Part shown: piece after piece, positions 17,426 through 37,020 of the stretch
Position numbering within the stretch: position 1 is the stretch's first letter
How the letters are laid out: the number at the start of each line of letters is the position of its first letter
Assembly (NCBI GenBank): GCA_027484025.1
Contig: JAIXTI010000081.1
Span: 62,001 to 126,000 of the forward strand
DNA from: a bacterium
GTDB lineage: Bacteria; Gemmatimonadota; Gemmatimonadetes; Gemmatimonadales; Gemmatimonadaceae
Length of the DNA: 64,000 nucleotides
Reading direction: 5' to 3'
The notes under the pieces: generated by a model
Seen by the model: only the letters and a program-made list of their open reading frames with translations
What the model was told of the DNA's origin: nothing
Databases searched by the model: none
Program-made: the position numbers and the translations under genes

Positions 17426-17490
17426 GTTTTCTGGCTCGTCTTTCTAAAGGGGTCAAACGCACTCGCGCACGCGCGCGAGTCAGTCGGGGT

Positions 17491-20338: not shown

Positions 20339-20427
20339 AACGCCGTGATTACTTGGGCGCGCGCGTGAAGATGAGATAATCGGCGCGATCAGCGTCTTCC
20401 TCCGGTAACGGCGCCTGCCAGAATTCT

Positions 20428-21789: not shown

Positions 21790-21852
21790 CGCGTTCGGCG
21801 CTCGCGTGGGGTTGTCAATCGTGCCCGTTCATGTGAGATGACTGCTGTTGCT

Positions 21853-22372: not shown

Positions 22373-24409
22373 ATGCACAAAAGAGCGCTCATCTTCACAC
22401 TCGTAATCGCAGGCAGTGCCGACGCACACGCGCAGACTCGCGCCAGTGCGCCCGTCACCGAATCCATTATCGTCGATGCGACCATCGACCAGCTTCAGGC
22501 GTGGATGAAGTCCGGGCAGCTTTCGTCGCGCAGACTGACCGAGGTCTATCTCTCACGCATCGAGCGATACGACAAACGGGGGCCCAGAATCAACAGCCTG
22601 CTTGAGGTCAATCCAGACGCATTGGCAATTGCCGACTCGCTCGATCGTGAACGTCGAGCAAAAGGACCTCGTGGTCCGCTGCACGGCATCCCGGTCATCT
22701 TGAAGGACGCGATCGCGACGGCCGATCACATGCGCACCTCGAACGGCTCGTACTGGCTGATGGATGCCGTACCAACGACGGACGCCACCATTGTCCAGAA
22801 GCTTAGGGCCGCCGGAGCGCTCATGCTCGCGAAGGCGAACATGGACGAAATGGCCTGTTGCAACGGGGTCGCGAGCGCCCGCGGTGGCGCTGTCCGCAAT
22901 CCATACAACCTCGATCGCTTCGCAAGTGGTTCGAGCAGCGGACCCGCTGCATCCATCGCGGCGAATCTTGGAGTCTTTTCAATTGGTGGCGACACACGGT
23001 CCTCCATTCGCTTTCCAGCCTCCGTCACATCACTCGTCGGCCTGAAGCCAACGCTCGGCCTCATCAGCCGCGCAGGTGTCATCCCCGGAGATGTGCATCT
23101 CGACGTCGTCGGCCCCATTGGACGCACTGTTACCGACGTTGCGATTGCCACGGGTGTGCTCACGGGCGAAGATCCGCGTGACTACTACACACTCGGCAGC
23201 AAGGGGCAGTCGCTCACCGACTACAGACGGTTTCTACAGCGCAACGCCTTGAAAGGCGCACGCATCGGCATTGCGCGCGATGGGTTCTTCGGACTCAATG
23301 CATCCATCGATACGGTGATGGAGCGAGCGCTCGCCGCGCTCGAGCGAGAGGGCGCGATTCTCGTCGATTCCATTTCACTCAAGACGGTACCGTACGCCGG
23401 CGGCCGGCGTGAGGATGCGGCGACGCTCAACGCGGCAAGCTCGCTCGCCCTCGACCAGTACTTGGGCGCGCTGTCGCCCGAATCACCAGTGCGCTCATGG
23501 GCGCAACTCCGGGCGCTGGCACTACTCGATCCACTGCCTAGTGGTCTCGCGCCAAGGCGAATGAGCGTGGACACTGGAACAACCCCCTTTTCGGCGTTCA
23601 CGCTCGGCAGCCCACGCGTGAAGGCAGCGTGGGATCGCTTTCGCAACGAGCAGCGCGACAGCGTCATGAGGCAGATCGAGAAATATCACCTCGATGCAAT
23701 CGTGTTTCCCACAACCAGCACACTCACCGCTCTCGTTGTTCCGTCGACTAGGGTGCAAGACCGACCGTCGGCGAGCCGCGGAAAGCCCGAGATCGCGAGT
23801 AATGCAGGGCTGCCGGAAATCACGGTGCCTGCGGGGTATACGGGTGGTGGTTTTCCCGTTGGAATGTCAATTCTCGGCCCCGCGTTTTCAGAGGGCAAGC
23901 TTCTTGGCTTTGCGTACTCGTTCGAGCAAGGCACACACAGTCGGAAGCCGCCCGACCTGTCGAAAGCACCGCCGCCGGTAGACGCCTATCTGCCGCCCGT
24001 TCCCGCCAACGATTCGTTTGCCGTTCGCCTGCGTCTCGAAGGACCGTCGGGTCGCGTCACCGGGAACCTGCTTCTCGCCACGGTGGAGTTCGGTGAGCCG
24101 AGAACGAGCACGCGTGCGATTGATCGGAGCGTGTGGTTCACGTATACGGCTGAGCGCGACGGGCAGCTGATCATCGACGATGACGGATCGGCGCCGACAC
24201 GCAACGACCTCGTTGTGTATGAGGGTGGTGCGAGCCTGGACAAACTCGGTACACCGACAAGAGCGCAGCGGAGATTGAACGGCGCGTTGCAAGCAACGCT
24301 CTCCGTAAAAGCGGGTGCGATCTACGTCATCGTATTGGGCACTGACGTCTTTGGCGCGGCGGGCGGGCAGTATGTGCTCAACTGGCGGTTGGGGGATGCG
24401 AAGCCATAG
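22373..24409 (+). CDS. Exported amidase with C-terminal PPC-like domain (cassette 9, reversed)
   Basis: A 678-residue amidase-signature enzyme. After a signal peptide (ALIFTLVIAGSADAHA) the Ser-cisSer-Lys triad is readable: Lys111 in PVILKDAIA, cis-Ser in SGSSSGPAAS (about residues 185-190) and nucleophile Ser211 in GGDTRSSIRFPAS. From about residue 565 a separate beta-sandwich (FAVRLRLEGPSGRVTGNLLLATVEFGEP...VWFTYTAERDGQLIIDD) resembles the bacterial pre-peptidase C-terminal domain, usually a secretion or binding module. It hydrolyses an unknown amide. The gene stops 5 bp before the attC at 24414 and fills a 2.5-kb cassette. Confidence 0.85.
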   Translation: MHKRALIFTLVIAGSADAHAQTRASAPVTESIIVDATIDQLQAWMKSGQLSSRRLTEVYLSRIERYDKRGPRINSLLEVNPDALAIADSLDRERRAKGPRGPLHGIPVILKDAIATADHMRTSNGSYWLMDAVPTTDATIVQKLRAAGALMLAKANMDEMACCNGVASARGGAVRNPYNLDRFASGSSSGPAASIAANLGVFSIGGDTRSSIRFPASVTSLVGLKPTLGLISRAGVIPGDVHLDVVGPIGRTVTDVAIATGVLTGEDPRDYYTLGSKGQSLTDYRRFLQRNALKGARIGIARDGFFGLNASIDTVMERALAALEREGAILVDSISLKTVPYAGGRREDAATLNAASSLALDQYLGALSPESPVRSWAQLRALALLDPLPSGLAPRRMSVDTGTTPFSAFTLGSPRVKAAWDRFRNEQRDSVMRQIEKYHLDAIVFPTTSTLTALVVPSTRVQDRPSASRGKPEIASNAGLPEITVPAGYTGGGFPVGMSILGPAFSEGKLLGFAYSFEQGTHSRKPPDLSKAPPPVDAYLPPVPANDSFAVRLRLEGPSGRVTGNLLLATVEFGEPRTSTRAIDRSVWFTYTAERDGQLIIDDDGSAPTRNDLVVYEGGASLDKLGTPTRAQRRLNGALQATLSVKAGAIYVIVLGTDVFGAAGGQYVLNWRLGDAKP

Positions 24410-24413
24410 CGCC

Positions 24414-24523
24414 GCCTAACGATTGCATCCTGCAGCAGGGTCCTTCCATAGGTTGCACGCGGTGTGCGAAGCGAGCAAGCGTGCAATCCTTGAAGGCCTG
24501 TCTGCAGCAACGCGATGTTATAC
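24414..24523 (-). repeat. attC site (cassette 8/9 boundary)
   Basis: Cores GCCTAAC and GTTATAC; arms tgcatcctgcagcagggtcc / ttgaaggcctgtctgcagca around a tgcacgcggtgtgcgaagcg centre. The ten bases from the right core (TTATACCGCC) are the exact complement of those before the next left core at 25699. Confidence 0.9.
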
Positions 24524-24647
24524 CGCCCTGCCGCCATCCTACGGGCGCGATCTCAAGAGAAGTGCCCCCGGCTAGCCCAACGCGTTTAGCACATGCAAGT
24601 TCGGCGCGTGCACGCGTTTGACACCCACTCCTCCGCCTCACTTCCGA

Positions 24648-25634
24648 ATGCGCCCGATCGTACTGGCCCTCTTGATGCTGCTGTCCGCGCGTACCTCGTG
24701 GGCACAAATGGCGGCGCGCACCGCTGACACCCTCATCACCGCGGAGATTCGCCGCCAGCTTGACCTCCTGTCGGCGACGACAAGTGTCGCGGCGGTCCAT
24801 CTGGGCTCGGGGCGCACGGCAGACGTGCGCGCCGACGTACCGATGAACACCATGAGCACGATCAAGATTCCGATCATGCTGCTGGCGTACCGGGATGCCG
24901 AAGCCGGACGACTCAACTTGGATGAACGGGTCACACTGCGCGAAGAGGACATGCGCGGCGGCACTGGCCTGCTCAGGCGCCTCGTACCCGGCGCCACGGT
25001 GACGTACCGGGATCTGATCGACCACATGATCATCACCAGCGACAATACGGCGACCGAAGCGCTGATCGTCAAACTGGGGATGGACCGCATCAACGGCATG
25101 TTGCGCGAGCTCGGGTTCCGCGAGACGCGACTCGTCCAGACCATCTCGCAGTACTTCCGGAACCGACAGATCGCGCTGGCGCCTGAGCGTGCGACGTGGA
25201 GCAACGTACAGATCCTGCGCGCACCCCGCGTCGCCGGGATGACCGACGCCGAGCTCGCCGCCAAGAATTTCGCGTATGCCGCGGATACGGCCACGTGGCT
25301 CGGGCGCACGACCGCCCGCGAGATGACCTCGCTCCTCGAGGGCATCTACACCGCGAGGTACGCAAGTCGCGCCAGCAGCACAGCCATGATGAACCACCTT
25401 TTTGGCCAGGTCTATACTACGAGACTGCCGGCCACGCTGCGCTATCGTTCGGACGTGCGCATTGCACATAAGACGGGCGACTACCCACCGACCTCCGGCA
25501 GCGATGTCGGCGTGATCGTGTATCCCGGCGGCGTGTTGGTGATCAGCGTGTACACCAACGCGAACCGCGGAGACTTCGCGCAACTCGAGCTCACGATCGG
25601 ACGCATTGCGGAGTTGCTCGTCAACCGCTGGTAG
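24648..25634 (+). CDS. Class A beta-lactamase-like serine hydrolase (cassette 8, reversed)
   Basis: A 328-residue exported enzyme with signal peptide (VLALLMLLSARTSWAQ) and class A landmarks: S70-T-I-K73, S131-D-N133 and K275-T-G277. The expected omega-loop ExxLN is missing (the segment reads RETRLVQTISQYFRNRQ), so efficient beta-lactam deacylation is doubtful; a peptidase, esterase or weak lactamase role is possible. The ATG at 24648 opens the signal. It runs opposite to the array in a 1.3-kb cassette, with 124 bp of leader after the attC and about 65 bp from the stop to the next site. Confidence 0.8.
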   Translation: MRPIVLALLMLLSARTSWAQMAARTADTLITAEIRRQLDLLSATTSVAAVHLGSGRTADVRADVPMNTMSTIKIPIMLLAYRDAEAGRLNLDERVTLREEDMRGGTGLLRRLVPGATVTYRDLIDHMIITSDNTATEALIVKLGMDRINGMLRELGFRETRLVQTISQYFRNRQIALAPERATWSNVQILRAPRVAGMTDAELAAKNFAYAADTATWLGRTTAREMTSLLEGIYTARYASRASSTAMMNHLFGQVYTTRLPATLRYRSDVRIAHKTGDYPPTSGSDVGVIVYPGGVLVISVYTNANRGDFAQLELTIGRIAELLVNRW

Positions 25635-25698
25635 CAGGGGAGCCACTGCACGGCGACGATCCGCCAGCGTACCGGTCGCTGCGTGGGGTTTGTTGGCG

Positions 25699-25835
25699 GT
25701 ATAACGAACGTTTGGTTGTTCCGTGACCGCCCCGTAAAGTGCCTGTGAGCGGCCGCGCGCTACCGTGAGGTACCAAACAGCGCGGCCGCTTACCGGCATC
25801 CTTACCGCGGTCATCGGCACCAACCGCCGTTCTCC
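25699..25835 (-). repeat. attC site, long-hairpin subfamily, mutated right core
   Basis: Left core GTATAAC is intact; the right core reads GTTCTCC and no longer pairs with GGCTAAC of the site at 26122. The centre is a long stem gagcggccgcgcgctaccg / ggtaccaaacagcgcggccg also present in the site at 30903, so these two form a second attC subfamily. Confidence 0.75.
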
Positions 25836-25865
25836 CGCGCCGAGCGAGTATCGGCGAAGTCGCGC

Positions 25866-26072
25866 CTATCGCGCGGCCTGAGTTCGCCGCCAGTCATCCG
25901 TCAACTGTCCGGCAAACCCCCAATTCTCCTCGCTGATCTCTTGGATGACCACGTGGATGTGCTCGGGCTTCTTCTGCAACTCACGCACGAGGGATTCGGT
26001 TACGTCGCGAACGAGCGCTGCCTTCTGGGCGCGCGTCGCTCCGGCGGTGATCTGAATGTTTACGTACGGCAC
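25866..26072 (-). CDS. 4-oxalocrotonate tautomerase family protein (cassette 7)
   Basis: A 68-residue tautomerase. The initiator residue is followed by Pro (MPYVNIQITAG), the N-terminal proline being the catalytic base once Met is removed. The phrase KAALVRDVTESLVRELQKKPEHIHVVIQEISEENWGFAG matches the family, including the late Trp-Gly. It would form a small cytoplasmic oligomer that moves double bonds in dienols or similar compounds. The GTG start at 26072 fixes Pro at position 2. The gene reads in cassette direction in the smallest intact cassette, about 420 bp. Confidence 0.9.
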   Translation of the reverse strand: MPYVNIQITAGATRAQKAALVRDVTESLVRELQKKPEHIHVVIQEISEENWGFAGQLTDDWRRTQAAR

Positions 26073-26121
26073 GTGTTCGAGGGAAGGAAAAGAATGTGTG
26101 GCCCGGCAAAGCTGCTGGTCG

Positions 26122-26231
26122 GGCTAACGCTTGCGTTCTGTTGCAGCGCCCTTCCATAAAATGTGGCCAGTGAGCGCAGCGAACAGGCCACCAACCGAAA
26201 CGGTGCTGTCAACAGCAACGCGAGGTTAGAT
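26122..26231 (-). repeat. attC site (cassette 6/7 boundary)
   Basis: Cores GGCTAAC and GTTAGAT, arms gcgttctgttgcagcgccct / gaaacggtgctgtcaacagc, centre aatgtggccagtgagcgcag. Main subfamily. The right core pairs exactly with ATCTAAC at 27899. Confidence 0.9.
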
Positions 26232-26299
26232 GGCGGCGGGTCGCGTGGTCTAATCCTAGCGGCGTGACGCCACCAGGTGCGGTGCGCTCCCCGTCGTGG

Positions 26300-27625
26300 C
26301 TACCGCTTCGGCAATCCGTCGACAAAGGCTTGGATTTCGCGCATCACCTCCGCGGGGTGTGATTCGAATACCGCGTGCTCTGCATTGGCGATTCGGATAA
26401 CCTTCGCGGACGGTACGCCCCGCTCGAAGGCCAGCGCCTGCTGCAGCGTCGCGCGGTCGGCGCCCGCAATCATCGCCCGTGTGGCGGAGTCGGCGCCTGA
26501 CGGAGCCCGATGCGGGTAGGCGAAGATGGCGAGCGTGGGTACAGGAATACGCGTGTGCTTCTGCCCCCCAAGGTAGATGGCTCGGGGAACGGCTTCATAC
26601 GTGGGAATCGGCCCGGTGGGGGTCGGCGCGCTCGTCAAGAGCGGTAGGGCGGCGCGTATGTCGCGCTCCAGATCAGGCAGTCCCCGATCAAGCAGCGCGC
26701 GGTATCGGCGCAATTGCTCGGCCGGTGGAATCGGTGCAAACGGATCGGTGAGCGCTTCGAGTTCACGGCGCACGTCCGAGGCGCTCGTGATGAAGCCGTT
26801 GTTGGCGTCGCCGGGCGTCGCGTCGTAGTACGCGTACGGATACCCCGCGTCCAGATAGACGAGACCCGAGACGCGCTCCGGCGCGCGCGAGGCGATCGAG
26901 CTCATCTCCGCGCCGCCAAACGACCACCCCGCGAGTACCGGCTTCGCAATCTTGAGCGAATCGAGCACCGCCAGCACATCGTCGGCCAGACTATCCGTGC
27001 GATAGCCCGTGGACGGAATGGACGAGGCGCCATAGCCACGGCGCGAGATGCCGATGACGCGATAATGCGCCGCCAACTTCGGTGCGAAATCGTTGAACAC
27101 GTGCCCACCTGCCCCTAACCCGGCAAGCAGCACAATCGTACGGCCCGTTCCCCCCCAATCGAGCACCTCGAGCTGCACGCCCGGTGCGACCGTCACAAAC
27201 GTCACCGGAGGTGCCTTTGCGTCGCGGAACTCGGTGCTCGGCGTATTACGGCTGAGTGCGAATGGAAGCACCGTCGCGGCTTGCGTGTAGGTGCCGGTGA
27301 TCGTCGCGCCATCGGCGCTCGCGAGCGCCTCGTACCGCGCGGGTCCAGTAAACACCAGGCGGATGCCGTCTCGCCGCACCTGCACCGTGTCGGCGATCTG
27401 CCGGTCGTCGATGCCGCCCTCGTCGAGCTTTACGAGGTAGGCGGAGAGCCGATGGTCGGGACCCTCAAACACACGCACGACGAGCCGTTGTACTGACGGC
27501 GTCGTGGCGACCGTACCCTGATAGTTGCCGATAGCGGTATGCGCGGCGCTCGGCCCCTGCGCGAGTGAGCGCGAGGCCGTCAGCATCACCACGCCTGCTG
27601 CGAACAAGTGACGTCGTAGAGACAT
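26300..27625 (-). CDS. Exported alpha/beta hydrolase (cassette 6)
   Basis: A 441-residue protein: signal peptide (FAAGVVMLTASRSLAQ), an N-terminal beta-rich region of about 130 residues, then an alpha/beta-hydrolase domain with the oxyanion phrase VLLAGLGAGGHVF, the nucleophile elbow GWSFGG (Ser about residue 235) and a histidine in NAEHAVFESHP. The leading region (YQGTVATTPSVQRLVVRVFE) is found in front of hydrolases in soil bacteria. Substrate unknown. The ATG at 27625 is preferred over GTG at 27640 because a GAGAAG site stands just upstream. It reads in cassette direction. Confidence 0.85.
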   Translation of the reverse strand: MSLRRHLFAAGVVMLTASRSLAQGPSAAHTAIGNYQGTVATTPSVQRLVVRVFEGPDHRLSAYLVKLDEGGIDDRQIADTVQVRRDGIRLVFTGPARYEALASADGATITGTYTQAATVLPFALSRNTPSTEFRDAKAPPVTFVTVAPGVQLEVLDWGGTGRTIVLLAGLGAGGHVFNDFAPKLAAHYRVIGISRRGYGASSIPSTGYRTDSLADDVLAVLDSLKIAKPVLAGWSFGGAEMSSIASRAPERVSGLVYLDAGYPYAYYDATPGDANNGFITSASDVRRELEALTDPFAPIPPAEQLRRYRALLDRGLPDLERDIRAALPLLTSAPTPTGPIPTYEAVPRAIYLGGQKHTRIPVPTLAIFAYPHRAPSGADSATRAMIAGADRATLQQALAFERGVPSAKVIRIANAEHAVFESHPAEVMREIQAFVDGLPKR

Positions 27626-27898
27626 CGAAATACTTCTCACGGTGAGGTACGCGGCTGCACATGGTCTGGCCGATGATTATGCATCGGGCACGCATCGCTG
27701 ACCAGCCTCAGCCGCTTGAGGGGGCGATCCTCCGCCTCGCCGTACTGGGGTCGGGCACGGATCACAGGCGGTAGAGCGGCTGCCATCGGAGCGCCGCACC
27801 ATCCTCAGGCCTTGACGTGTCGCCAGAGGAGAACTGCATCCGAATTCGACACGTAGCGGATACGGAGGCCAATGCCGTACACCGAAGGCGCAGCCGCC
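27626..27898. other. Leader of cassette 6
   Basis: About 270 bp between the attC at 27899 and the hydrolase start. The only long minus-strand frame crosses the attC and has no recognisable domain, so no gene is called. Confidence 0.4.
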
Positions 27899-27996
27899 AT
27901 CTAACGCCAAAGTTCTGCTGCAAGGCGATTGGATAAAAGAACGCGCGAAGCGCGTTTGCTCAATGGCCGCCTTGGCAGCAGCAACGACAGTTATAC
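27899..27996 (-). repeat. attC site (cassette 5/6 boundary)
   Basis: Cores ATCTAAC and GTTATAC, arms aagttctgctgcaaggcg / cgccttggcagcagcaacga, hairpin centre aacgcgcgaagcgcgtt. Two extra bases on the right arm are spaced by six paired bases, as in described attC hairpins. The brnA stop codon TAA is made of bases in the right core. Confidence 0.9.
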
Positions 27997-28287
27997 CGCG
28001 CGCTTTCGACGTGGCGTTGGTGTCGATGCCGCCACATGGTCGACGTAGCTGCGCAACACCGCGTTGATCTGTGACTGATATCGAGGCCCCTGGGCGCGAA
28101 AGAACTCCACGACGTCGCGGTCCAAGCGAATGGAGATCGCCTGCTTGGACACCGGCGAAACCACGCGCGCACTCTGCCACACCGTATCCGGGAGGTCGCG
28201 AAGCTCCGCCGGCGACGTCCGTTGAATCTCCGCTTCCGTGACGCGCCTGAGCCGCGCCAGATCAGCGCGCCCCTTCGTCGGGCTCAT
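27991..28287 (-). CDS. brnA: BrnA antitoxin (cassette 5)
   Basis: A 98-residue antitoxin of the BrnA family. The C-terminal half (SKQAISIRLDRDVVEFFRAQGPRYQSQINAVLRSYVDH) is the ribbon-helix-helix DNA-binding and dimerisation part with the typical RLDRDVVEFF...YQSQINAVLRSY pattern; the N-terminal half wraps the toxin. The start at 28287 overlaps the last 26 bases of brnT, the usual toxin-first order of this system. Its stop lies within the attC core, so the coding sequence ends at the very edge of the cassette. It is expected to repress its own operon through the palindrome at 28604-28613. Confidence 0.9.
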   Translation of the reverse strand: MSPTKGRADLARLRRVTEAEIQRTSPAELRDLPDTVWQSARVVSPVSKQAISIRLDRDVVEFFRAQGPRYQSQINAVLRSYVDHVAASTPTPRRKRAV

Positions 28288-28588
28288 CTTGCTCGCGGAT
28301 GGCTTCGAGGGCTTCGGCATACAGGCGGCGCTCCTTGCGGTTGCTGAGACGGGCACTGATCAGGCGGCGGACCACGCCGCTAGACGGCTCGACGCGATCG
28401 GTGAACACGACCGTGAGAGCGAAGCCGTCGGCGGTGCCGAGCGCCACCACGCGTCGCTCTCCGTAGTCGCGACGCGTATCGTCGAATTCCACGTACGGGC
28501 TCGCGAATACCTGCGAGGCGAATTCAAAGTCGAACCCGCGCTGCGCGAGATTCCGCAGGCTCTTGGCGGCGTCCCACTCAAAGGTCAC
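28262..28588 (-). CDS. brnT: BrnT toxin (cassette 5)
   Basis: A 108-residue BrnT-family toxin, a small RelE-fold ribonuclease that cuts mRNA. It opens with the family signature FEWDAAKSLRNLAQRGFDFEFASQVF and carries the later DYGERRVVALGTADGFALTVVFTDR and RLISARLSNRKERRLY, which include the conserved Arg residues. The GTG start at 28588 lies 16 bp from the palindromic operator, so leader RNA is short or absent. Toxin-antitoxin cassettes are known to stabilise chromosomal integron arrays. Confidence 0.92.
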   Translation of the reverse strand: MTFEWDAAKSLRNLAQRGFDFEFASQVFASPYVEFDDTRRDYGERRVVALGTADGFALTVVFTDRVEPSSGVVRRLISARLSNRKERRLYAEALEAIREQDEPDEGAR

Positions 28589-28603
28589 AGGGAAGGATAC
28601 AAA

Positions 28604-28613
28604 TGTATATACA
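28604..28613. promoter_or_regulatory. Palindromic operator upstream of brnTA
   Basis: The perfect palindrome TGTATATACA, followed on the minus strand by ttTGTATcc as a half-repeat, lies directly before brnT in AT-rich DNA that could also hold its -10 region. Ribbon-helix-helix antitoxins bind such sites; the link to BrnA is inference. Confidence 0.6.
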
Positions 28614-28646
28614 CTCGCGCAAGGCCGCCCGCAGGCGAGTCAAGCG

Positions 28647-28759
28647 GTATAACGCTCGCGTTCTGCTGCAGCGCCCTTCAACAGGATGCGGCCAGCGAGC
28701 GCAGCGAGCAATGGGCCGCAATCCTTGAAGGCCCTGCCAGCAGCAACGCAAGGTTAGAC
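28647..28759 (-). repeat. attC site (cassette 4/5 boundary)
   Basis: Cores GTATAAC and GTTAGAC; arms gcgttctgctgcagcgccct / ccttgaaggccctgccagca; centre gatgcggccagcgagcgcag. It is the best representative of the main subfamily and nearly identical to the sites at 21853 and 26122. Confidence 0.92.
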
Positions 28760-28968
28760 CGCGGCCGCCACTCGACTTTCCGCGACGCCGTTCCCGCGGT
28801 GTATCCCAGTGTCGAAGCGCGACTGGTCAACGGCCAGTTCGCAGATCGCGCCTTAGCCGTCCGCCGACATGCGGCGCTGTAGTTCCGGCTACAGGGCACA
28901 CGCCCATCGCTGCGGAACAGCAACAGAGACACGCCCGATTCTTGGATTTATAGGCCGGTAGTAAAGCG

Positions 28969-28997
28969 TTGCAAATGAATACGTTAGGCGATATATG
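28969..28997 (+). promoter_or_regulatory. Candidate promoter of the reversed cassette 4 gene
   Basis: TTGCAA (28969-28974) and TATATG (28992-28997) are 17 bp apart, in an AT-rich patch unlike the surroundings, about 90 bp before the start codon at 29090. The 330 bp between the attC and this gene hold no other gene. Confidence 0.45.
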
Positions 28998-29053
28998 GCT
29001 AAATACTTGGCAATAGGGGCTTTGGGGCACTTGCGCCATGAAACGCCCGAGTA

Positions 29054-29071
29054 TAGGATAACTTCATCCTA
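29054..29071. promoter_or_regulatory. Small inverted repeat before cassette 4 gene
   Basis: TAGGAT and ATCCTA are separated by six bases, about 20 bp before the start codon. The position suits an operator, possibly bound by the winged-helix-like product itself; this is inference. Confidence 0.35.
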
Positions 29072-29089
29072 ATTCGGGGAGCTTTCGTG

Positions 29090-29896
29090 ATGGGAACCCA
29101 GACAGAGACCGACGGCGACGCGACTGCCCCTGAACGGGGAGTTCAGTACCCGGGTGACAACCTCGCCGACGCACTCGCGATGCTCGAGAAGGTGCGAACA
29201 GCGGTAGGCGTGGGCGCGGCCAAGCGCGAGCTCATCGCGTCAGCGATTGGCTACAAGTCGCTGAGCGGCCATGCGGCGCGGCGATTGGGATCGCTAGCCC
29301 ACTACGGACTGCTTGAGCGTGCAGGCAAGGGTGCGGCGCGCATTTCGCAGCTCGGCAAGGCGATACTCATGCCCACGAGCGAGGCGGAGAAGACGCTGGC
29401 GATAGTAGAGGCAGTGAAGCAGCCGAACTTATTTGCGACCTTGCTGGCGAAGCACACGGGGCATGCTCTGCCGACGATGCTTCCGAACATGCTGGCGAGG
29501 GAGCACGGCGTTAACGCTTCGGTCGCAGAGCAGGCGGCTACGACATTTCGAGAGTCGGTCGAATTCGCCGGCCTGCTTCGCAACGGCGTCCTGTACTCCT
29601 CTCTCGAAAGCGATGACCCCGCAGCGACGGGAAATAACGCTGCGCCCGCATCTCGTACGACTGCGCCCGAATCTGCCGGGCAGGTGCCGAAGCGAGTCAC
29701 GGAGGGCGCTGGTGAAGGCCCATCGGCAGACGTCATGACTTACACGATCGCCCTTGATCCTCGCACGACACGGGTTGCCTCGATCTCAATGCCCGTTCCA
29801 GTCACTGCGCGGGACCTTAGGAATGTCGAGGCGTGGGTGACGTACATGAAGATGGCCATGCTGGACGAAGAAGCGCCCGACATCAGCGGGAACTGA
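29090..29896 (+). CDS. Winged-helix-like protein of unknown function (cassette 4, reversed)
   Basis: A 268-residue cytoplasmic protein. Residues 20-90 (DNLADALAMLEKVRTAVGVGAAKRELIASAIGYKSLSGHAARRLGSLAHYGLLERAGKGAARISQLGKAIL) look like a winged-helix domain of a family known from mobile elements, followed by a helical part and a low-complexity Ala/Pro/Thr linker (about 180-215). The C-terminal 40 residues are a separate small domain. The ATG at 29090 follows an in-frame GTG and a GGGGAG site. The gene runs against the array with its own candidate promoter and a strong terminator at its stop, so it is insulated from neighbouring cassettes. Confidence 0.7.
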   Translation: MGTQTETDGDATAPERGVQYPGDNLADALAMLEKVRTAVGVGAAKRELIASAIGYKSLSGHAARRLGSLAHYGLLERAGKGAARISQLGKAILMPTSEAEKTLAIVEAVKQPNLFATLLAKHTGHALPTMLPNMLAREHGVNASVAEQAATTFRESVEFAGLLRNGVLYSSLESDDPAATGNNAAPASRTTAPESAGQVPKRVTEGAGEGPSADVMTYTIALDPRTTRVASISMPVPVTARDLRNVEAWVTYMKMAMLDEEAPDISGN

Positions 29897-29906
29897 TGTC
29901 GGGCGC
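29873..29906. terminator. Perfect hairpin over the stop codon
   Basis: A 14-bp perfect inverted repeat (29873-29886 and 29893-29906, six-base loop) includes the TGA of the preceding gene. There is no T-run, but it should form a very stable hairpin and block read-through in either direction. Confidence 0.65.
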
Positions 29907-30040
29907 CAGAATCTCCCATCGGGTATAGAGGTCGCCCAAAGGGAGGCCGAACGAGGGTCGAGCGTTGGTGCACTTGCAATGCCAACGCTACGTGTTCGAC
30001 CCCGCGGTAGCAAGTGACCCCGACTCAACCAGGAGGGCCA

Positions 30041-30172
30041 ATGGACGCTCATTGCGTACCGGCTCCGCCAGGAAAGCGGTGGATCTATCGCCGTTGGGTG
30101 CGAAATCCCAAGACTGGGAAGCGCATCTACCCGCGTGGCGGAAAGTGCTTCGCGTTTCTCGTAGACGAGTAG
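30041..30172 (+). CDS. Small basic protein of 43 residues (cassette 4)
   Basis: An AGGAGG ribosome site six bases before the ATG marks this short gene. The product starts MDAHCVPAPPGKRWIY and continues RRWVRNPKTGKRIYPRGGKCFAF, rich in Arg, Lys, Trp and Tyr. Short proteins with a similar WIYRRWxxxxxGKRIY pattern occur on plasmids and phages without known function. It follows the winged-helix gene on the same strand after 145 bp and precedes its own hairpin at 30182-30224, so it may be a separate transcript. Confidence 0.6.
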   Translation: MDAHCVPAPPGKRWIYRRWVRNPKTGKRIYPRGGKCFAFLVDE

Positions 30173-30181
30173 CCTAAGTGG

Positions 30182-30224
30182 CGCCCGATAGCGGGGGAGA
30201 ATCTTGCGTTCTCGCTATCGGGCG
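30182..30224. terminator. Hairpin terminator-like structure at cassette end
   Basis: A 12-bp perfect inverted repeat (cgcccgatagcg / cgctatcgggcg) with an inner gagaa/ttctc stem lies 10 bp after the small gene and 14 bp before the attC. It could end the plus-strand transcript before it enters the attC. Confidence 0.6.
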
Positions 30225-30237
30225 AAGGGCACGAGCG

Positions 30238-30345
30238 GTCTAACGCATAGCTCTGCCGCGGGGCCTCATAACAATGGGGCAGGCCCGCGCAGCGGGCCAG
30301 CCACCAACCTTCATCAGCCCCGTCGGCAGCAGCGACCCGTTAGCT
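30238..30345 (-). repeat. attC site (cassette 3/4 boundary)
   Basis: Cores GTCTAAC and GTTAGCT; arms ctctgccgcggggcctcat / ccccgtcggcagcagcgac; centre ggcaggcccgcgcagcgggcc. The ten bases TTAGCTCGCG after the crossover match the complement of those before the next left core at 30903. Confidence 0.9.
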
Positions 30346-30370
30346 CGCGGGAACAGTTGTCGCAGTGACA

Positions 30371-30874
30371 CTAGTCATGAGGAAGTGCACTGCGAGCACG
30401 GACTTGAACGATGAGAGCCTTAATTGACTCTGCCAGACGCGCGTGATCCGGCACTACCCATGTTCCACCGCCACCATATCGGGAAGCGAATCGGTCACCG
30501 GTTGCGAGGTCTTCGTAGTAGCCGTGATTGAGATGCACGATAAACGCGTGCATATGCTCTACCGCGAGGTCGAATCCTTCCGCCTCAACCTGCTTGCAAA
30601 GCCTCACAAGATCGTGCGTTCTGGGTGGTTCGACTCCAGCGACGGCCAGGCAAGCCTTCATTGCCAGTTCTAATGCCTGACCGATGAGCTGATACCAGGG
30701 CATGGTATGCCGAAGTGGTTGGTTAGCGTCGTCAAGCACTGCTGCGGCGTCCAGGTACTGCTCAGCGTACACGACGTACGCCAACGAGATTATCTGAAGC
30801 GACTCCGCAAACGTGCGCCTCGGCTGCTGGTAGAGCGCCGCGGTCTTTGCTTGCAGTGCATCAATGTCGTGCAT
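30371..30874 (-). CDS. HEPN-like protein (cassette 3)
   Basis: A 167-residue all-helical cytoplasmic protein. Residues 60-100 (WYQLIGQALELAMKACLAVAGVEPPRTHDLVRLCKQVEAEG) carry the HEPN signature: a helix of the LE-x-AxKAxLxxxG type, then PRTHDLxxL. A clear RxxxxH ribonuclease motif is not seen, so it could be a non-catalytic HEPN or a partner protein. HEPN domains are frequent in toxin-antitoxin and abortive-infection systems. The ATG at 30874 lies 29 bp after the attC, and the gene reads in cassette direction. Confidence 0.7.
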   Translation of the reverse strand: MHDIDALQAKTAALYQQPRRTFAESLQIISLAYVVYAEQYLDAAAVLDDANQPLRHTMPWYQLIGQALELAMKACLAVAGVEPPRTHDLVRLCKQVEAEGFDLAVEHMHAFIVHLNHGYYEDLATGDRFASRYGGGGTWVVPDHARLAESIKALIVQVRARSALPHD

Positions 30875-30902
30875 GTTGAGTCTCGGTGCGTTCGCGGTCG
30901 CG

Positions 30903-31036
30903 AGCTAACGCCAAGTTGTGCTGTGGCCGCTTCTATAAGGTGCGGTTGGGCGGCCGTGCGGTACCGTCAGGTACGATAAAGCACGGCCGCCCAACCGCTA
31001 CCCCAGCGCGGCCGTCTGCACCAACTGCCGTTATGC
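30903..31036 (-). repeat. attC site, long-hairpin subfamily (cassette 2/3 boundary)
   Basis: Cores AGCTAAC and GTTATGC; arms aagttgtgctgtggccgct / agcgcggccgtctgcaccaac. The centre is a long stem gttgggcggccgtgc / gcacggccgcccaac with an inner ggtacc/ggtac repeat, shared with the site at 25699. The stop of the cassette 2 gene falls in the right core. Confidence 0.9.
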
Positions 31037-31921
31037 CCCGGCGCCGCGATCTCGTCGATCAAGCTTCACGTTTTCGCCGTCGAACCATGCTTCGACGCCG
31101 CAGGGGAGCGCTCCACGCTCAATCGGATTCGACGCATTCGGGTTGTGCACGAGAATGAAGTCGCGACCCTGCTGCGTCGCTCGATTGTACTGATCGACCC
31201 AGCAGTACATGACAGCGCTGATTCCGTCGTGCGACTTGTCCAGAAAGATGCTCTTTGATACTTCCGCACCGGATTGCTTGATAAGGGTAGGCTCGTGCTC
31301 GAACGAGTGTCCGGTGATTTCGAAGGTGTTGGCGTCGAGGTGGACCACGCGGTTCCCGATGGGGAACACGGCGCCAATGATCCATGGCACATCCGGTTCG
31401 CCACGGGACGAAGGAAGGCGCGCTCCATTGATGGCCACAACGTACGGATCTGAACTCGATAACACACCATTCTTCCGATACCCCTGATACTTCATGTGTT
31501 TCTCTGCAATCGCCGCCCGCAGGCGCAACGTTATCTCCGCCTTCGGTACTGAGCGCACCACGCCAAGCTCCGCCTCCGTGACCCTGTCGGGACCGGCACC
31601 TGGGCGTGCCGCGATTGCCTCAACGTAGATGCTTGGCGGTGCAACCACGAAGTCGGGACCGCCTTTCGCGAGGTTGCGCTTCTTGTTAGGAACGAGCGGA
31701 AGCCCCGCATCAAGGATCGCGGCCGCGAGGTACATCTCCCAGTAGCGCCCAATCAGGTCGTTCTGCGCTGCCTCGCGGATGTCCGCGTCGAGGAACTGAT
31801 TCGCGCGTAGCCACAGAGCTTCAACGCGCTCACGCGCTTCGATCTCGTGCGCGTGCTCGGGCGAGTGCAAGTTGCCATACTCGACATCGGCTCCGACGTG
31901 GTCAATCAGAAAGAAGGTCAT
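31031..31921 (-). CDS. Hypothetical protein with PD...E nuclease-like motif (cassette 2)
   Basis: A 296-residue cytoplasmic protein. After a helix RYWEMYLAAAILDAG (about 59-73) comes KGGPDFVV (Pro89-Asp90) and then IYVEAIAA (Glu101). This is the spacing of the PD-(D/E)xK nuclease fold, although the Lys of ExK is replaced by Ile. The later part (VVAINGARLPSS, WIIGAVFPIGNRVVHLD) looks like the rest of a compact beta/alpha fold. Similar GPDFLL...VWVEAVA proteins occur widely without known function. The start at 31921 lies 14 bp from the attC core; its TAA stop lies inside the next one. Confidence 0.6.
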   Translation of the reverse strand: MTFFLIDHVGADVEYGNLHSPEHAHEIEARERVEALWLRANQFLDADIREAAQNDLIGRYWEMYLAAAILDAGLPLVPNKKRNLAKGGPDFVVAPPSIYVEAIAARPGAGPDRVTEAELGVVRSVPKAEITLRLRAAIAEKHMKYQGYRKNGVLSSSDPYVVAINGARLPSSRGEPDVPWIIGAVFPIGNRVVHLDANTFEITGHSFEHEPTLIKQSGAEVSKSIFLDKSHDGISAVMYCWVDQYNRATQQGRDFILVHNPNASNPIERGALPCGVEAWFDGENVKLDRRDRGAGA

Positions 31922-31934
31922 ACTCCGGTCGTGG

Positions 31935-32059
31935 GCATAACGTGTGCATCTGCTGTGAACGCTCCAGTAAGAAGGGTTTGGCGGGGCGTCCGCAAACAAG
32001 CCTAGGCCATCACGGACGCCCCGCCAAAACGCGTTCATCGGCAGCAAGCGCCGTTAGCC
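31935..32059 (-). repeat. attC site with 16-bp perfect stem (cassette 1/2 boundary)
   Basis: Cores GCATAAC and GTTAGCC; outer arms catctgctgtgaacg / cgttcatcggcagcaagcg; centre is the perfect stem tttggcggggcgtccg / cggacgccccgccaaa with a 20-base loop. It represents a third attC type. The right core pairs with GGCTAAC at the attI junction. Confidence 0.9.
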
Positions 32060-32074
32060 CGTACCGCGCCACGG

Positions 32075-33883
32075 CTATCCAAGGATTGCGTCTAGCGAGC
32101 CGTCGATTGAGGAGTGACGCTGACGGATGCTTGCTTCGACCGCAACGATTTTCTCGAAGAACGAGAAACCCAAGAGGTGGGGGTGGGCTCTCAAGGCGGC
32201 AAAGGTGGCTGGGTCGGAAATGCAATCGTCAATCGGAACCCTTTCGACCCCGGGAAAGCGCGTGGGAAGAAGGAGAGCGACCGGATCTGGGAGTAAAGCG
32301 GGCGGCGCACCGTGTGCTGTCTTGTCGGTCAAGTAGCACGACTGAATGAAGAGCACTGCGTGAAAGAGCGGAAGGTCTGCAATGGTAAGCGAAACATGCT
32401 TGCCTCCTTTCTCAGTAAGCTGGATAGTCTCGTACAGCTTTCGGAGAAACTTCCGATAGTGCGTCACGCCAGGCTTGCGAACAAGCCCAGTGGCTGCGCG
32501 TATCCGCTGCAGTGCGGGGAGCACGTAATGCTGTTCGACTGCGAACGGGTCAATCTCAAAAAGTAGCGGAATGACTGCATCCGTTCCAACGGAAGCGCCG
32601 AACTTCTTGATTAGTTGGGCCTTCGCCTGTGGCGGCGCCGACGCAACGAACCGGGCCGCGAAATACTCTTGGAAGGAACGATGGGCGAATGTGATATCTT
32701 GACCTTCCTCGACCAGCAAGCACACTGCTTGTTTTGCGTCAGCGAGAAAGTCAGTCGGGGAGAACTCAAGGTGCGTCAAGGAGCGACAGCGGTCAAACTC
32801 GTCGAGCGCAAGGGTTAGCGGGAACGAGAACTGTCGCTTGCTGTAGGTCCGGACGCAGAAGGTGGAGAACACGCGCTCAAAGTCGCGGATATCCAGAGTG
32901 GTACGGCGCGCGCGCTGATAGCCCGATTTGAGCGCGTCGTGCTTTTGGAAGAGCGCTTCGTAGGCAGAGTTGTAGAAAATGCTGAGTTTGCTCGGTATAT
33001 GCGCTGTGTCGTGATAGGTCAGCAGCATAATGGAGAGCAGAAGTGGATTAGAAAGAAACGACTGATGACGCGCAAACAGCTCGCTCCGAAGATCGCGAAC
33101 AAAGCGCGCCTTCACATCGCTATCAAAGTCGAGCCGCTCAACAAGCGAGACCGCCTTCTCAATGCTAAGTGGGGCAACGCGGAGTACTGAGAACGCTGTC
33201 CATCCTTCAAGCTCGGGGTCCGGTCGAGACGAGAGAACGATCCAGTTGCCTGTATATCGTTCAGCGAGTGCCTGCACCTCCGTAGCCACCTTGCTCCGTG
33301 TGCGCTTGTCCAGTTCGTCGTACCCATCGAGGAGCAGCACAAAATGACCGGCTCCGAGGGCGAGCCGTAAATAGCTGGACTCAACCTCAAGACCATTCGC
33401 GTTCAGGGATGCGAGCAGCGCCTCCTCCAGCGACAACTCCGAGAGATCTACGGTGCGGAGTTCGAGGAATACAGGAATCTTCTCACGAGTACGTAGCGCT
33501 GACAGCAGGATGTGGCGCATGATCATACTCTTGCCGGATCCGCCGCTACCTGTGAGAATGGCACGCGGTGCCACCGCTGCGATGTCCGCCGCACCCGCGC
33601 TCGGAATAGTGCGACGGTCCGTCACTACGTCTAGCGGAACGAAAAACCGATACAGTGAGATCGGCTCCGAGCGAATGAAGAACGACTTCGCTCGCGAGTG
33701 GCGGTCAAGAAGCCTTCGCACGTACGTATCGTACGTGCGCTCGAGTTTGACTCGCAGCTTATCCCGTGCGCCGCGAAAACCGTGGCTCGCTATTGAGAAT
33801 GCTTTGTCGACGTGAGCCTGAAGGAACTCGGCCGCAATCTTGTTCGGATCGAGATCCGGCGGAACAACTACTGGAACGGTCAT
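32075..33883 (-). CDS. NACHT-domain NTPase (cassette 1, next to attI)
   Basis: A 602-residue STAND ATPase. Residues 1-105 form a helical N-terminal region; Walker A is LTGSGGSGKSM (112-119), Walker B LLLDGYDELD (183-192), followed by the sensor LSSRPDPEL and the late motif ITFAHRSFQEYFAARF typical of NACHT proteins. The C-terminal ~170 residues lack clear repeats. Bacterial NACHT proteins include anti-phage NLR-like sensors; no separate effector domain is recognised here. Base composition is visibly lower in GC than the flanking chromosome. The ATG at 33883 lies 18 bp after the attI junction and the stop 15 bp before attC, a textbook cassette in the position of newest insertion and highest expression. 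Confidence 0.88.
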   Translation of the reverse strand: MTVPVVVPPDLDPNKIAAEFLQAHVDKAFSIASHGFRGARDKLRVKLERTYDTYVRRLLDRHSRAKSFFIRSEPISLYRFFVPLDVVTDRRTIPSAGAADIAAVAPRAILTGSGGSGKSMIMRHILLSALRTREKIPVFLELRTVDLSELSLEEALLASLNANGLEVESSYLRLALGAGHFVLLLDGYDELDKRTRSKVATEVQALAERYTGNWIVLSSRPDPELEGWTAFSVLRVAPLSIEKAVSLVERLDFDSDVKARFVRDLRSELFARHQSFLSNPLLLSIMLLTYHDTAHIPSKLSIFYNSAYEALFQKHDALKSGYQRARRTTLDIRDFERVFSTFCVRTYSKRQFSFPLTLALDEFDRCRSLTHLEFSPTDFLADAKQAVCLLVEEGQDITFAHRSFQEYFAARFVASAPPQAKAQLIKKFGASVGTDAVIPLLFEIDPFAVEQHYVLPALQRIRAATGLVRKPGVTHYRKFLRKLYETIQLTEKGGKHVSLTIADLPLFHAVLFIQSCYLTDKTAHGAPPALLPDPVALLLPTRFPGVERVPIDDCISDPATFAALRAHPHLLGFSFFEKIVAVEASIRQRHSSIDGSLDAILG

Positions 33884-33900
33884 CTGAGTCCTGAGTATCG

Positions 33901-34081
33901 GGCTAACGCCCATTAGCCTGCAGGAAACTCTTGCAAGGCGGCCGTTATGTGACATTTCCCTGCAAGATAACAGAATCATCTAGCCGTTCACGACATCCCG
34001 CAAGCGACTGCGGACAAACGACTTGGGACGAGTTATCGCCGTTTCGAACGCCGTTGTTCTCTTGCAAGCGCTGCAAGATAA
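33901..34081 (-). other. attI-like integration region
   Basis: Between the intI stop and the first cassette. The core GGCTAAC (GTTAGCC when read leftwards) at 33901-33907 is the junction where the first cassette begins and pairs with the far end of that cassette. Upstream of it are two pairs of direct repeats: CTCTTGCAAG at 33928-33937 and 34059-34068, and CTGCAAGATAA at 33960-33970 and 34071-34081. Such repeats are expected as integrase binding sites in attI. A second core-like GTTATGT is at 33944-33950. The exact limits of attI are inferred. Confidence 0.7.
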
Positions 34082-34115
34082 ATGGAATTCGCCGAGAGGC
34101 GGCGCCGCGCAAACG

Positions 34116-35084
34116 TCAGCGCCTCGCGCGGTCCAATGGACTCTGAACCCCAAGCCCGCCGCGGTTCAATACGTGGGTGTACAACATCGTCGTTTTCACG
34201 TCGCGATGCCCCAGGAGCTCCTGTACCGTCCGGATATCGGAGCCCGACTCTAGCAGGTGCGTGGCAAAGCTGTGGCGGAACGTATGGCACCCCACCCGCT
34301 GCGCGACCCCGCTCTTCACGCCGGCCTCGGCCACCGCTCTTTGCACGACAGAGGGATCAATGTGATGTGTGCGCCGAGTGCTGCTCTCCCGGTGCCAATA
34401 CTCGCGAGCCGCGGGAAACACCCAACACCATCCCCAGAGCCGGGAAACGCGTGGCGCTTTCCGCTCCATGGCATGCGGCACTTCCACCCAGGCGCCTCCG
34501 CGCGCTACCCGCCGTCCCATCAGGTGGCGCACCTGCACGAGGTGCGCGCGCAGCGGTGTGCTGACCGACACGGGCAGCATGGTGACACGATCGCGCTGCC
34601 CTTTGCCACGGCGCACACGTATCTCCCCACGATCGAAGTCCACATCCTTCACTCGCAGCTGACAGCATTCCTGAACGCGCAGGCCGCTGCCATACATCAG
34701 CTGCGCCATCAGCAATGGTGTCCCCGACAAGCACCCGAGGACCTGTTGGACGGCCTCGCGCGACAGCACGTTGGGCAAGTGCGTCGGGCGACGCGCCGGC
34801 TCGACGCCAGGCAACTCCGCCAATGGCTGCTCCAAGACGTCACGATAGAGAAATTGCAGGGCGGCCAACGCCTGATTCTGTGTCGACGCCGCAACGTTTC
34901 GCTCGCGGGCCAGATACGTGAGAAAATCGCGCACCTGCATGGCTCCCAGCTGAGCCGGGTGGCGAAGCCCACTCCATCGCACATACCGCACAATCCACCG
35001 CACATACACCTGCGCCGTGCGCGGACTGTACCGCCGCACCGCCGCACGGTCGCGCACCAACAACAAGAGGCGTGAAGACGTCAT
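34116..35084 (-). CDS. intI: Integron integrase IntI
   Basis: A 322-residue tyrosine recombinase with all catalytic residues: Arg136 (GSGLRVQE), Lys161 (RRGKGQRDR), His267-x-x-Arg270 (HTFRHSF), His293 (LLGHRDVKTT) and Tyr302 (MLYTH). Residues about 206-245 (ERKAPRVSRLWGWCWVFPA and on) are the extra segment that sets IntI apart from XerC/D and is needed to bind folded attC. It recombines attI with attC to insert, excise and shuffle cassettes. It reads in the same direction as the cassettes with attI beyond its stop, the inverted layout reported for some spirochaetes and planctomycetes. The ATG at 35084 lies in a tandem-repeat hairpin. Confidence 0.95.
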   Translation of the reverse strand: MTSSRLLLLVRDRAAVRRYSPRTAQVYVRWIVRYVRWSGLRHPAQLGAMQVRDFLTYLARERNVAASTQNQALAALQFLYRDVLEQPLAELPGVEPARRPTHLPNVLSREAVQQVLGCLSGTPLLMAQLMYGSGLRVQECCQLRVKDVDFDRGEIRVRRGKGQRDRVTMLPVSVSTPLRAHLVQVRHLMGRRVARGGAWVEVPHAMERKAPRVSRLWGWCWVFPAAREYWHRESSTRRTHHIDPSVVQRAVAEAGVKSGVAQRVGCHTFRHSFATHLLESGSDIRTVQELLGHRDVKTTMLYTHVLNRGGLGVQSPLDRARR

Positions 35085-35114
35085 GCATCATCATGCATCG
35101 GTCTCCACGCCTCT
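35066..35114. promoter_or_regulatory. Hairpin and tandem repeat around the intI start codon
   Basis: A 14-bp inverted repeat with one mismatch (agaggcgtgaagac at 35066-35079, gtctccacgcctct at 35101-35114) encloses two tandem copies of a ten-base unit (TCATGCATCA, TCATGCATCG), the first of which contains the intI start codon. In RNA this would put the start codon in a loop; in DNA it is a good repressor target. No SOS-type box was recognised. Confidence 0.55.
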
Positions 35115-35175
35115 CTGTCATCATCGCAACGCGCGCCGTCTCACGACAACGCACGTCACGCCACCACCCGACGAA

Positions 35176-37020
35176 CTACTTCGTGCGGTCCCGGCGCACC
35201 TGCACCCGCAAACCCTTGATCTTCGTGTTCTTGAGCGCGGTGATCACTTCGTCAGCCATCGCCTCCGGCACGTCGACCGTGCTGAAGTTGTCGGCAATCT
35301 GAATGGCACCAATGTGCTCCGAGTCCAAACCGGCCTCGTTCGCAATCGCACCCACGAGATCGCCCGGACGCATCTTGAGCTTGCGACCAGCACCAATCCA
35401 CAACGTGGCCGCGGTCCACGCCGACTCACGACGCGGCTTCTTGCCACGAGCGGCGCCAGCCCCACCTTCCGCACGCGGCGGACGGCGATCGCTGCTGCCT
35501 TCACGCGAGAAACGCTCGCCACCGCGCGAATCGCCGCGAGAATCACCTCGCGACTCCCCACCACGGCTCTCGCCACGATCGAACCGCTCACGCGGCTCAC
35601 GCGCCGTCACTGCCGGGATCTCGTCTTCGCCACCATCGCGCGCCGCGACCAGCTTCACCGCCGCCGCCGCCACGTCCATCACGTCGAACTCGCCCGCCAG
35701 CGCTTCCACGATACCACGGAAGCTTTCGAGGCCGCCCTCAACAATGGCCTCACGCAACGTCATCTTCACCAGCTCCTGACGGTGCGCACGCAAATCGGCC
35801 ACGGTGGGCACCTGCGCAATATCGATCTTCTGGCTCGTCTGACGCTCGATGTTGCGCAGCAACCGGTGCTCACGCGGCTCGGCCAACGTAATGGCCACAC
35901 CCTCGCGACCCGCACGGCCGGTGCGGCCAATACGGTGCACATACGTTTCCGCGTCGGCGGGCACGTCGAAGTTGACCACGTGACTCACGTGCTTCACGTC
36001 GAGACCACGCGCCGCCACGTCGGTGGCGATGAGCAGATCCACCTTCTTGGCGCGGAACTTCTGCATCACGCGGTCACGCTGATCCTGCGACAACCCGCCG
36101 TGCAGCGACTCCGCCCGCAACCCGCGCGCCGACAGCGTCTCACTCAACTCGTCCACTTCGGTCCGCGTGCGGCAGAAGACGATCGCGCTGGTGGGCTGCT
36201 CGATATCGAGCACCCGCGCCAACGCCGGCATCTTGTGCGCGCGGCTCACCACGTACGCCACCTGGCGCACCCGGGCCACGGCGCCCTCAGCCAACACCTC
36301 ACGCTCCACCGTCACATGCTCGGGGTCACGCAGATACTTGCGCGCGATTCCGGCAATGCGCGGCGGCAACGTGGCCGAGAAAAGACAGGTCTGCTTGCTC
36401 TCCGGCGTGGCGTCGAGAATGGCCTCGAGTTCGTCGGCGAAGCCCATGTCGAGCATTTCGTCGGCTTCGTCGAGCACCACCGCCTGCAACGTGCCCAGCT
36501 TGAGCGTGTTGCGCTTGATGTGGTCGAGCGCACGACCCGGCGTCGCAATCACGACATCGACGCCGCGCTTGAGCGCCCGGATCTGCAACTCCATGCTCGC
36601 GCCGCCGTACACGGCCAGCGCGTGCAAGCCGAGCGGCTTGCCGTACCGATGCACCGCCTCGGCCACCTGCATGGCCAGTTCGCGGGTCGGGACCAGAATG
36701 AGGACCGACGGCGCCCCGTTGGCAGCCTTATGTCCGGCGCCAATACGGGTGAGCAACGGCAGCGAAAAGGCGGCCGTCTTGCCGGTGCCCGTGGCGGCCT
36801 GCGCGAGCACGTCGCGACCAGCCAGCAGGGGCGGAATGGACGCCCGCTGTACGGGCGTGGGTTCTTCGTATCCGAGAGCCGAAAGGGCCTCGGCAATGCG
36901 CGGGTCAACACCCAGAGCGGCGAAACCGTTGGAATTCCCGGTTTCGGAACTATCCTGCTGATCGAGCTCGGTGTTCGCGCGGATCGGCGCTGCAGACGAG
37001 CGCACGTCCGTTTTGGTCAT
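35176..37020 (-). CDS. DEAD-box RNA helicase with DbpA-type RNA-binding domain
   Basis: A 614-residue helicase. Motifs in order: Q motif (PTPVQRASIP), AATGTGKTAAFS, PTRELAMQV, DEADEMLDMGF, SATLPPR, then the second RecA domain with ATDVAARGLD and HRIGRTGRAGREG. Next come an Arg/Gly/Ser/Asp-rich linker (about 450-530) and a C-terminal DbpA RNA-binding domain (KMRPGDLVGAIANEAGLDSEHIGAIQIADNFSTVDVP). This is the CsdA/DeaD layout; such proteins unwind structured RNA in ribosome assembly and cold adaptation. An AGGAG site precedes the ATG. It marks the chromosomal edge of the integron and diverges from the SET gene. Confidence 0.92.
   Translation of the reverse strand: MTKTDVRSSAAPIRANTELDQQDSSETGNSNGFAALGVDPRIAEALSALGYEEPTPVQRASIPPLLAGRDVLAQAATGTGKTAAFSLPLLTRIGAGHKAANGAPSVLILVPTRELAMQVAEAVHRYGKPLGLHALAVYGGASMELQIRALKRGVDVVIATPGRALDHIKRNTLKLGTLQAVVLDEADEMLDMGFADELEAILDATPESKQTCLFSATLPPRIAGIARKYLRDPEHVTVEREVLAEGAVARVRQVAYVVSRAHKMPALARVLDIEQPTSAIVFCRTRTEVDELSETLSARGLRAESLHGGLSQDQRDRVMQKFRAKKVDLLIATDVAARGLDVKHVSHVVNFDVPADAETYVHRIGRTGRAGREGVAITLAEPREHRLLRNIERQTSQKIDIAQVPTVADLRAHRQELVKMTLREAIVEGGLESFRGIVEALAGEFDVMDVAAAAVKLVAARDGGEDEIPAVTAREPRERFDRGESRGGESRGDSRGDSRGGERFSREGSSDRRPPRAEGGAGAARGKKPRRESAWTAATLWIGAGRKLKMRPGDLVGAIANEAGLDSEHIGAIQIADNFSTVDVPEAMADEVITALKNTKIKGLRVQVRRDRTK

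Follow-up and report, generated by a model that had tools for sequence, protein, structure and literature searches.

The window, by which we mean the whole stretch of 64,000 nucleotides analysed here, contains an integron integrase gene (intI), an attachment site (attI) located after its stop codon and an array of gene cassettes, in this order and all on the minus strand (Table 1). The complete intI gene starts with ATG, and its product scored 394 bits against the NCBIfam integron-integrase model TIGR02249 (cut-off 265), far above its scores against both XerC (159 bits, cut-off 335) and XerD. Its best relative of solved structure, IntI4 of V. cholerae (2a3v), aligned with it over the full length, and the alignment revealed the catalytic residues and the IntI-specific insertion, the extra domain of integron tyrosine recombinases. 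A previous reading of the letters without database searches (the sequence-only reading) had claimed a complete IntI with this insertion and had named grouping with XerC/D as one outcome that would speak against its view; both the gene and its family were read correctly, as was the Gemmatimonadota-like chromosome, since the window genome belongs to the same genus as G043. This is the sole IntI of the genome, with one match over the TIGR02249 cut-off, and PADLOC returned no match for it. The DEAD-box helicase gene 5′ of intI ends 91 bp from it and is its neighbour on the same strand in seven Gemmatimonas genomes, with gaps of 57–116 bp. An inverted repeat, GAGGCGTG...CACGCCTC, encloses a GATGCAT repeat and overlaps the intI start codon (35058–35115); it could form a regulatory hairpin.

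Table 1. Features of the integron locus in the window, all on the minus strand unless a gene is marked (+). Cassette rows give the limits of the cassette and, under Feature, its gene and attC site.
Feature	Coordinates	Strand	Basis
DEAD-box helicase gene, directly 5′ of intI, chromosomal anchor	35176–37020	−	conserved neighbour
intI, integron integrase, 322 aa	34116–35084	−	TIGR02249 394 bits; 2a3v E 9.4e-78
attI module, ~190 bp, CTCTCGGCG box to crossover	33905–34098	−	ends shared with orphan copies; R3 115.6 bits
Distal attI dyad, half-sites at −174 and −158 from crossover	34057–34081	−	half-site TTAKNYTGC
attI half-site at −63	33962–33970	−	half-site TTAKNYTGC
attI half-site at −14 (L box)	33913–33921	−	half-site TTAKNYTGC; phylum core consensus YCTAATNNNCGTT
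attI core GTTAGCC, crossover after 33907	33901–33907	−	sequence; end of conservation among relatives
Cassette 1: NACHT NTPase gene 32075–33883 (−), attC1 31932–32062	31935–33906	−	PF05729
Cassette 2: 296-aa protein 31031–31921 (−), attC2 30900–31039	30903–31940	−	no Pfam match
Cassette 3: HEPN-domain protein 30371–30874 (−), attC3 30235–30348	30239–30908	−	PF05168
Cassette 4: 269-aa ORF 29087–29896 (+), attC4 28644–28762	28647–30244	−	ORF; attC model
Cassette 5: BrnT/BrnA toxin–antitoxin pair 28262–28588, 27991–28356 (−), attC5 27896–27999	27899–28652	−	PF04365, PF14384
Cassette 6: alpha/beta hydrolase 26300–27640 (−), attC6 26119–26234	26122–27904	−	PF00561
Cassette 7: no clear gene, attC7 25700–25838	25700–26127	−	attC model
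Cassette 8: beta-lactamase-family gene 24618–25634 (+), attC8 24411–24526	24414–25700	−	PF13354 E 4e-53
Cassette 9: amidase 22253–24409 (+), attC9 21850–21968	21850–24413	−	PF01425
Cassette 10: hydrolase 20572–21789 (+), attC10 20425–20551	20425–21850	−	PF00561
Cassette 11: CarboxypepD_reg protein 17897–20512 (−), attC11 17488–17585	17488–20425	−	PF13620
Cassette 12: amidohydrolase-like ORF 15995–17425 (−), last attC 15870–15986	15870–17488	−	ORF

The array spans about 18 kb (33906–15870) and comprises 12 cassettes. Their 12 attC sites are all minus-strand ones, located from 32062 down to 15870. These sites were first noticed as repeats downstream of intI, and the attC model that gave the positions in Table 1 was built from an alignment of eight of them. 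The stem covariation score of this alignment was reached in none of 500 shuffles, and sliding the pairing destroyed the signal. As a check of the cassette boundaries, the first bases of each cassette (the R′ of the preceding site) were compared with its own R″, where they should recur complemented; over seven bases the match was exact in nine cassettes and mismatched in three. The attC sites carry R″/R′ boxes, a stem and extrahelical bases, as those of integron arrays do. A weak candidate at position 3630, with neither core boxes nor an R′/R″ match, was dropped.

The proximal cassettes encode a NACHT NTPase, a HEPN protein and the BrnT/BrnA toxin–antitoxin pair, and the distal ones hydrolases, an amidase and a beta-lactamase-family gene. 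The genes of the three cassettes nearest to intI (30371–33883), for the NACHT NTPase, an unknown protein and the HEPN protein, are all co-oriented, and they look like defence genes. In four of the 11 cassettes with a clear gene, including the beta-lactamase-family gene of cassette 8, the gene runs opposite to the array; such inverted genes would have to be served by promoters of their own.

At 208 bp past the intI stop codon is the attI crossover, G^TTAGCC, which marks the end of conservation between related loci; the stretch singled out in the sequence-only reading (33901–35084) has its lower limit at the far end of this core. The closest relative (98% identity in IntI) is 89% identical to the window across the 211 bp that end with GTT, falling to the shuffled level beyond it, and pairs of relatives share 61–94% identity up to GTT and 13–37% beyond. 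This places an attI-like region after the intI stop codon, as had been proposed, and we regard it as a candidate entry site for cassettes in cis with intI. The core consensus across Gemmatimonadota is YCTAATNNNCGTT. Upstream of the core, Gemmatimonas attI sites contain half-sites TTAKNYTGC at the fixed positions −174, −158, −63, −46 and −14 relative to the crossover; over 13 loci there were 51 such matches, against 4.9 expected and a maximum of 11. The distance from the intI stop codon to the core varies between 176 and 250 bp while the spacing of the half-sites to the core is constant, and the distal dyad is fixed relative to the core and not to the stop codon in 10 of 11 Gemmatimonas loci. 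Within a genome the half-sites are more alike than between genomes (0 of 2000 permutations), which fits the binding of all of them by a single protein; this protein, which would bind the −174 dyad as well, is probably IntI. Nearly all attI, main and orphan, are marked at their left end, some 190 bp ahead of the crossover, by the box CTCTCNGNGCG, and in the main loci this left end follows directly after intI.

The direction of an attC site is defined by the extrahelical bases on its R″–L″ arm (PMC2727003). In the window these bases sit on the corresponding arm of the minus strand, which is therefore the attC top strand. With all attC sites on the minus strand and 3′ of intI, and none 5′ of it in the window, intI is transcribed towards the cassettes, in accordance with the sequence-only reading. 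The locus is a reverse integron: intI is co-oriented with the cassettes and attI lies 3′ of it.

Orientation was also examined with an independent attC finder, which accepts extrahelical bases on one arm only and was applied to either strand of each locus. Of its 153 hits in 40 Gemmatimonadaceae loci, 147 were located 3′ of intI on the intI strand, and so were 25 of 29 hits in 20 loci of other Gemmatimonadota. The class 1 integron was unusable as an orientation control, its short attC sites being missed by both the attC model and the finder, and 80 named loci from many phyla were used instead. These yielded 55 canonical placements (e.g. in Pseudoduganella, Pseudoalteromonas, a cyanobacterium and an Anaerolineales genome), 28 reverse ones, mainly in Acidobacteriota and Planctomycetota, and 11 others; the finder is thus able to return either answer. 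The reverse layout recurred, with no clear exception, in a further 30 loci of Gemmatimonadaceae and in 10 of other Gemmatimonadota families, and it is the rule in the phylum; the notion that the layout is special to the window locus is not supported. A megaplasmid-sized replicon carries one of the reverse integrons, with 21 or more attC sites.

The IntI tree agrees with the layout. The window IntI falls in the inverted-type branch, and orientation changes twice along the tree compared with 12.2 times in shuffles (0 of 500 as low), with weak support for the backbone. An inverted IntI sub-clade has been reported (PMC8352920), and Gemmatimonadota are already among the phyla listed with integrons (PMC8618304). 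The novelty of the inverted layout itself is modest, the reverse integron being already known. Counting IntI matches above the curated cut-off, we found the gene in 93 of 179 Gemmatimonadaceae genomes and in 138 of 395 sampled genomes of the phylum, common soil bacteria that form a large, little-described reservoir of reverse integrons.

Searching the window genome revealed a second exact copy of the distal dyad on another contig, within an attI copy 90% identical over ~195 bp that lacks intI and is followed by a cassette and an attC site. Using whole attI sequences and a 180-position attI profile, we obtained attI matches for 24 Gemmatimonas genomes out of 30, and most of these have several. 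The window genome has four attI and one intI, so that three of its attI are orphans, i.e. without intI; G067 has seven or more copies, and each of four genomes of the sister genus g10 has four or five. Among the 62 copies that we examined, 16 are located beside intI or a piece of it and 46 are not. The copies match the profile over its full length with 40–115 bits and have the half-sites and the left-end box in common, and the orphans share the right end, and approximately the left end, of the main attI.

Downstream of the 46 orphans, 43 attC sites were called on the same strand and three on the opposite strand in 174 kb, compared with two and three, respectively, in 122 kb upstream. In the window genome every attC cluster without an integrase whose head lies on the contig (C138, C45 and C128) starts at a full-length attI. 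No attC was called by the strict finder within the available 5 kb in 17 of the 46 orphans, several of which are at contig ends; others may be dead. Orphans showed no bias to sit behind co-oriented genes (21 vs 15). An empty site for the orphan of locus A was sought and not found, since the downstream synteny had diverged.

Most of these genomes are draft assemblies; G045 and G043 are single contigs. Mis-assembly or contamination could in principle create extra attI copies, as the window genome consists of 291 contigs with 3.9% contamination and G057 has two intI genes. Against this, the single contig of G045 (4,716,552 bp) has one intI and five attI, four of them orphans, and the same orphan sites with their host flanks recur in independent genomes, which leaves an assembly artefact the least credible of the explanations we weighed. 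The two intI genes of G057 are different and full-length, each with an adjacent attI (contigs C60 and C72), and represent either two integrons or contamination.

Several orphan sites are orthologous between species, up to five of which share a site. One lies behind a Sortilin-Vps10 gene in the window genome, G058, G067, G045 and G057, another behind a PALP-CBS gene in the first four of these, and there are further such sites. Their upstream flanks are 79–97% identical and the attI is recognisable in each, whereas past the crossover the gapped similarity is 0.49–0.57 (random median 0.53). Cassettes are also shared between sites. In two species, a 1,220-bp cassette (98.6% identity) begins right at the core of an orphan attI, the two sites being different ones with attI of two different types; within G045, the main array and one orphan array have a 632-bp stretch in common (98%); and the BrnT/BrnA cassette of the window is 96% identical to a copy in a G045 orphan array, the backbones of the two genomes being ~80% identical. 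Differing cassettes at orthologous orphans together with shared cassettes are what would be expected if IntI in trans inserts cassettes at orphan attI. The orphan attI look used in this way and may still be active. A 2,433-bp cassette with a Xer-like tyrosine recombinase was found, 100% identical, at the main and an orphan attI core of G058, and a 79% relative of it in the G048 array.

Another view is that the orphan attI are relics of complete integrons that lost intI, the main locus alone being alive and the orphan arrays being ordinary CALINs (clusters of attC sites lacking an integrase) with a dead attI. It would explain why attI copies persist in genomes without a full-length intI (G056 and G064), where some copies may indeed be relics, why the left end of attI in main loci directly follows intI, and why some orphan cores have decayed (GCATTG on contig C109 of G067; G043 at 4377k). 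However, none of the 46 orphans was found to have an intI remnant upstream of it, their left end is near-constant over many loci (CTCTCGGCG-type box) and not ragged as after deletions, closely related species differ in the cassettes at orthologous sites, and orphan and main arrays have recently shared cassettes. We consider this view unlikely. A far less probable alternative is that the orphan arrays were filled through non-classical attG sites, which are neither attI nor attC, their likeness to attI being incidental. attG sites are short, while the orphans match the 180-position profile over its full length and bear the same half-sites and left-end box, so that these orphans do not qualify as attG insertions. 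Cassette clusters away from attI are known to arise by such insertion (discussed in PMC12444791).

Types of attI have also been exchanged at fixed positions. G067 shares 95% identity with the window genome in a backbone segment and 92–96% in most of the helicase gene, yet within intI identity drops to 64–78% and its attI is of another type; by this comparison (window 34116–37020 against contig C193 of G067), the intI–attI unit was replaced in place. At orphan locus B, different attI types are found on flanks that are 97% identical. We considered whether every attI in a genome is of the same type as the integrase there and discarded this, the window genome and G067 each carrying both types.

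The layout, the attI, the array, the orphan copies and the differing cassettes at orthologous sites can all be read in the DNA; that IntI is active and acts in trans is our inference. Our reading, to which we assign a probability of roughly 0.8, is a reverse sedentary chromosomal integron in which, in Gemmatimonas and its sister genus, the same IntI appears to act on other attI as well. IntI would be made from the gene whose 3′ end abuts attI and would recombine the bottom strand of an incoming attC with the G^TT core, so that cassettes queue up on the intI strand, 3′ of the gene. In trans, it would work on the further chromosomal attI, each at the head of its own array, providing several docking platforms per genome with one integrase. 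In the more extended form of this reading, which we favour with less assurance, this would be a distributed integron with one integrase and several scattered platforms, the 190-bp attI being a dispersing, type-swapping module and the cassettes being stored, shuffled and expressed independently of intI. Read-through from intI, suggested before as a source of cassette expression, is possible; between intI and the core a terminator-like signal was found in none of 32 loci, a result that says little with 0.4 expected. Coupling of intI and cassette expression cannot be general, as orphan attI head arrays without intI upstream.

The textbook integron has one integrase, one attI and one growing array. 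If our reading is true, one integrase feeding several conserved docking sites changes how arrays are counted and how CALINs are explained, and the several platforms change the view of where incoming cassettes can be expressed. Orthologous orphan sites with differing cassettes at exact coordinates make the trans idea testable. One integrase apparently serves several chromosomal platforms, and the dispersed full-length attI without intI, located outside the window, are apparently more unusual than the inverted layout; their novelty rests on a limited search of the open-access literature, which yielded no description of dispersed attI copies.

Among known systems, the closest in layout are Treponema denticola and other Treponema, in which intI is transcribed towards the cassettes with attI in between (PMC3607928; PMC7691350), as in the window. 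They belong to a different phylum, their attI is described as having two direct repeats where we found inverted half-site pairs and the −174 dyad, and the Treponema paper does not describe the extra attI copies present in Gemmatimonas. Archaeal integrons likewise have attI immediately downstream of intI (PMC9668308); their hosts differ, and dispersed attI are not known to be reported for them. Orphan arrays resemble CALINs in having attC sites without a nearby intI, at several places per genome as in Xanthomonas (PMC12444791), and some (e.g. C45 and C128 of the window genome, G045 at 4679k, and C13 of G051) have the at least two attC without intI that define CALINs; however, orphan arrays with an examinable head begin at a full-length attI, which is outside that definition. 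In Delta-attI cassettes of mobile integrons, attI sequence is also found away from its usual place (PMC12901181), but there a partial attI replaces the attC at a cassette end, whereas the orphans are full-length and located outside the array, at its head. An origin of the orphans as Delta-attI cassettes was rejected on these grounds and on the five attC calls in the 122 kb upstream. With class 1 and Vibrio integrons the window shares the IntI family, attC sites with extrahelical bases and the GTT core, but their intI diverges from the array and they have a single attI, next to intI.
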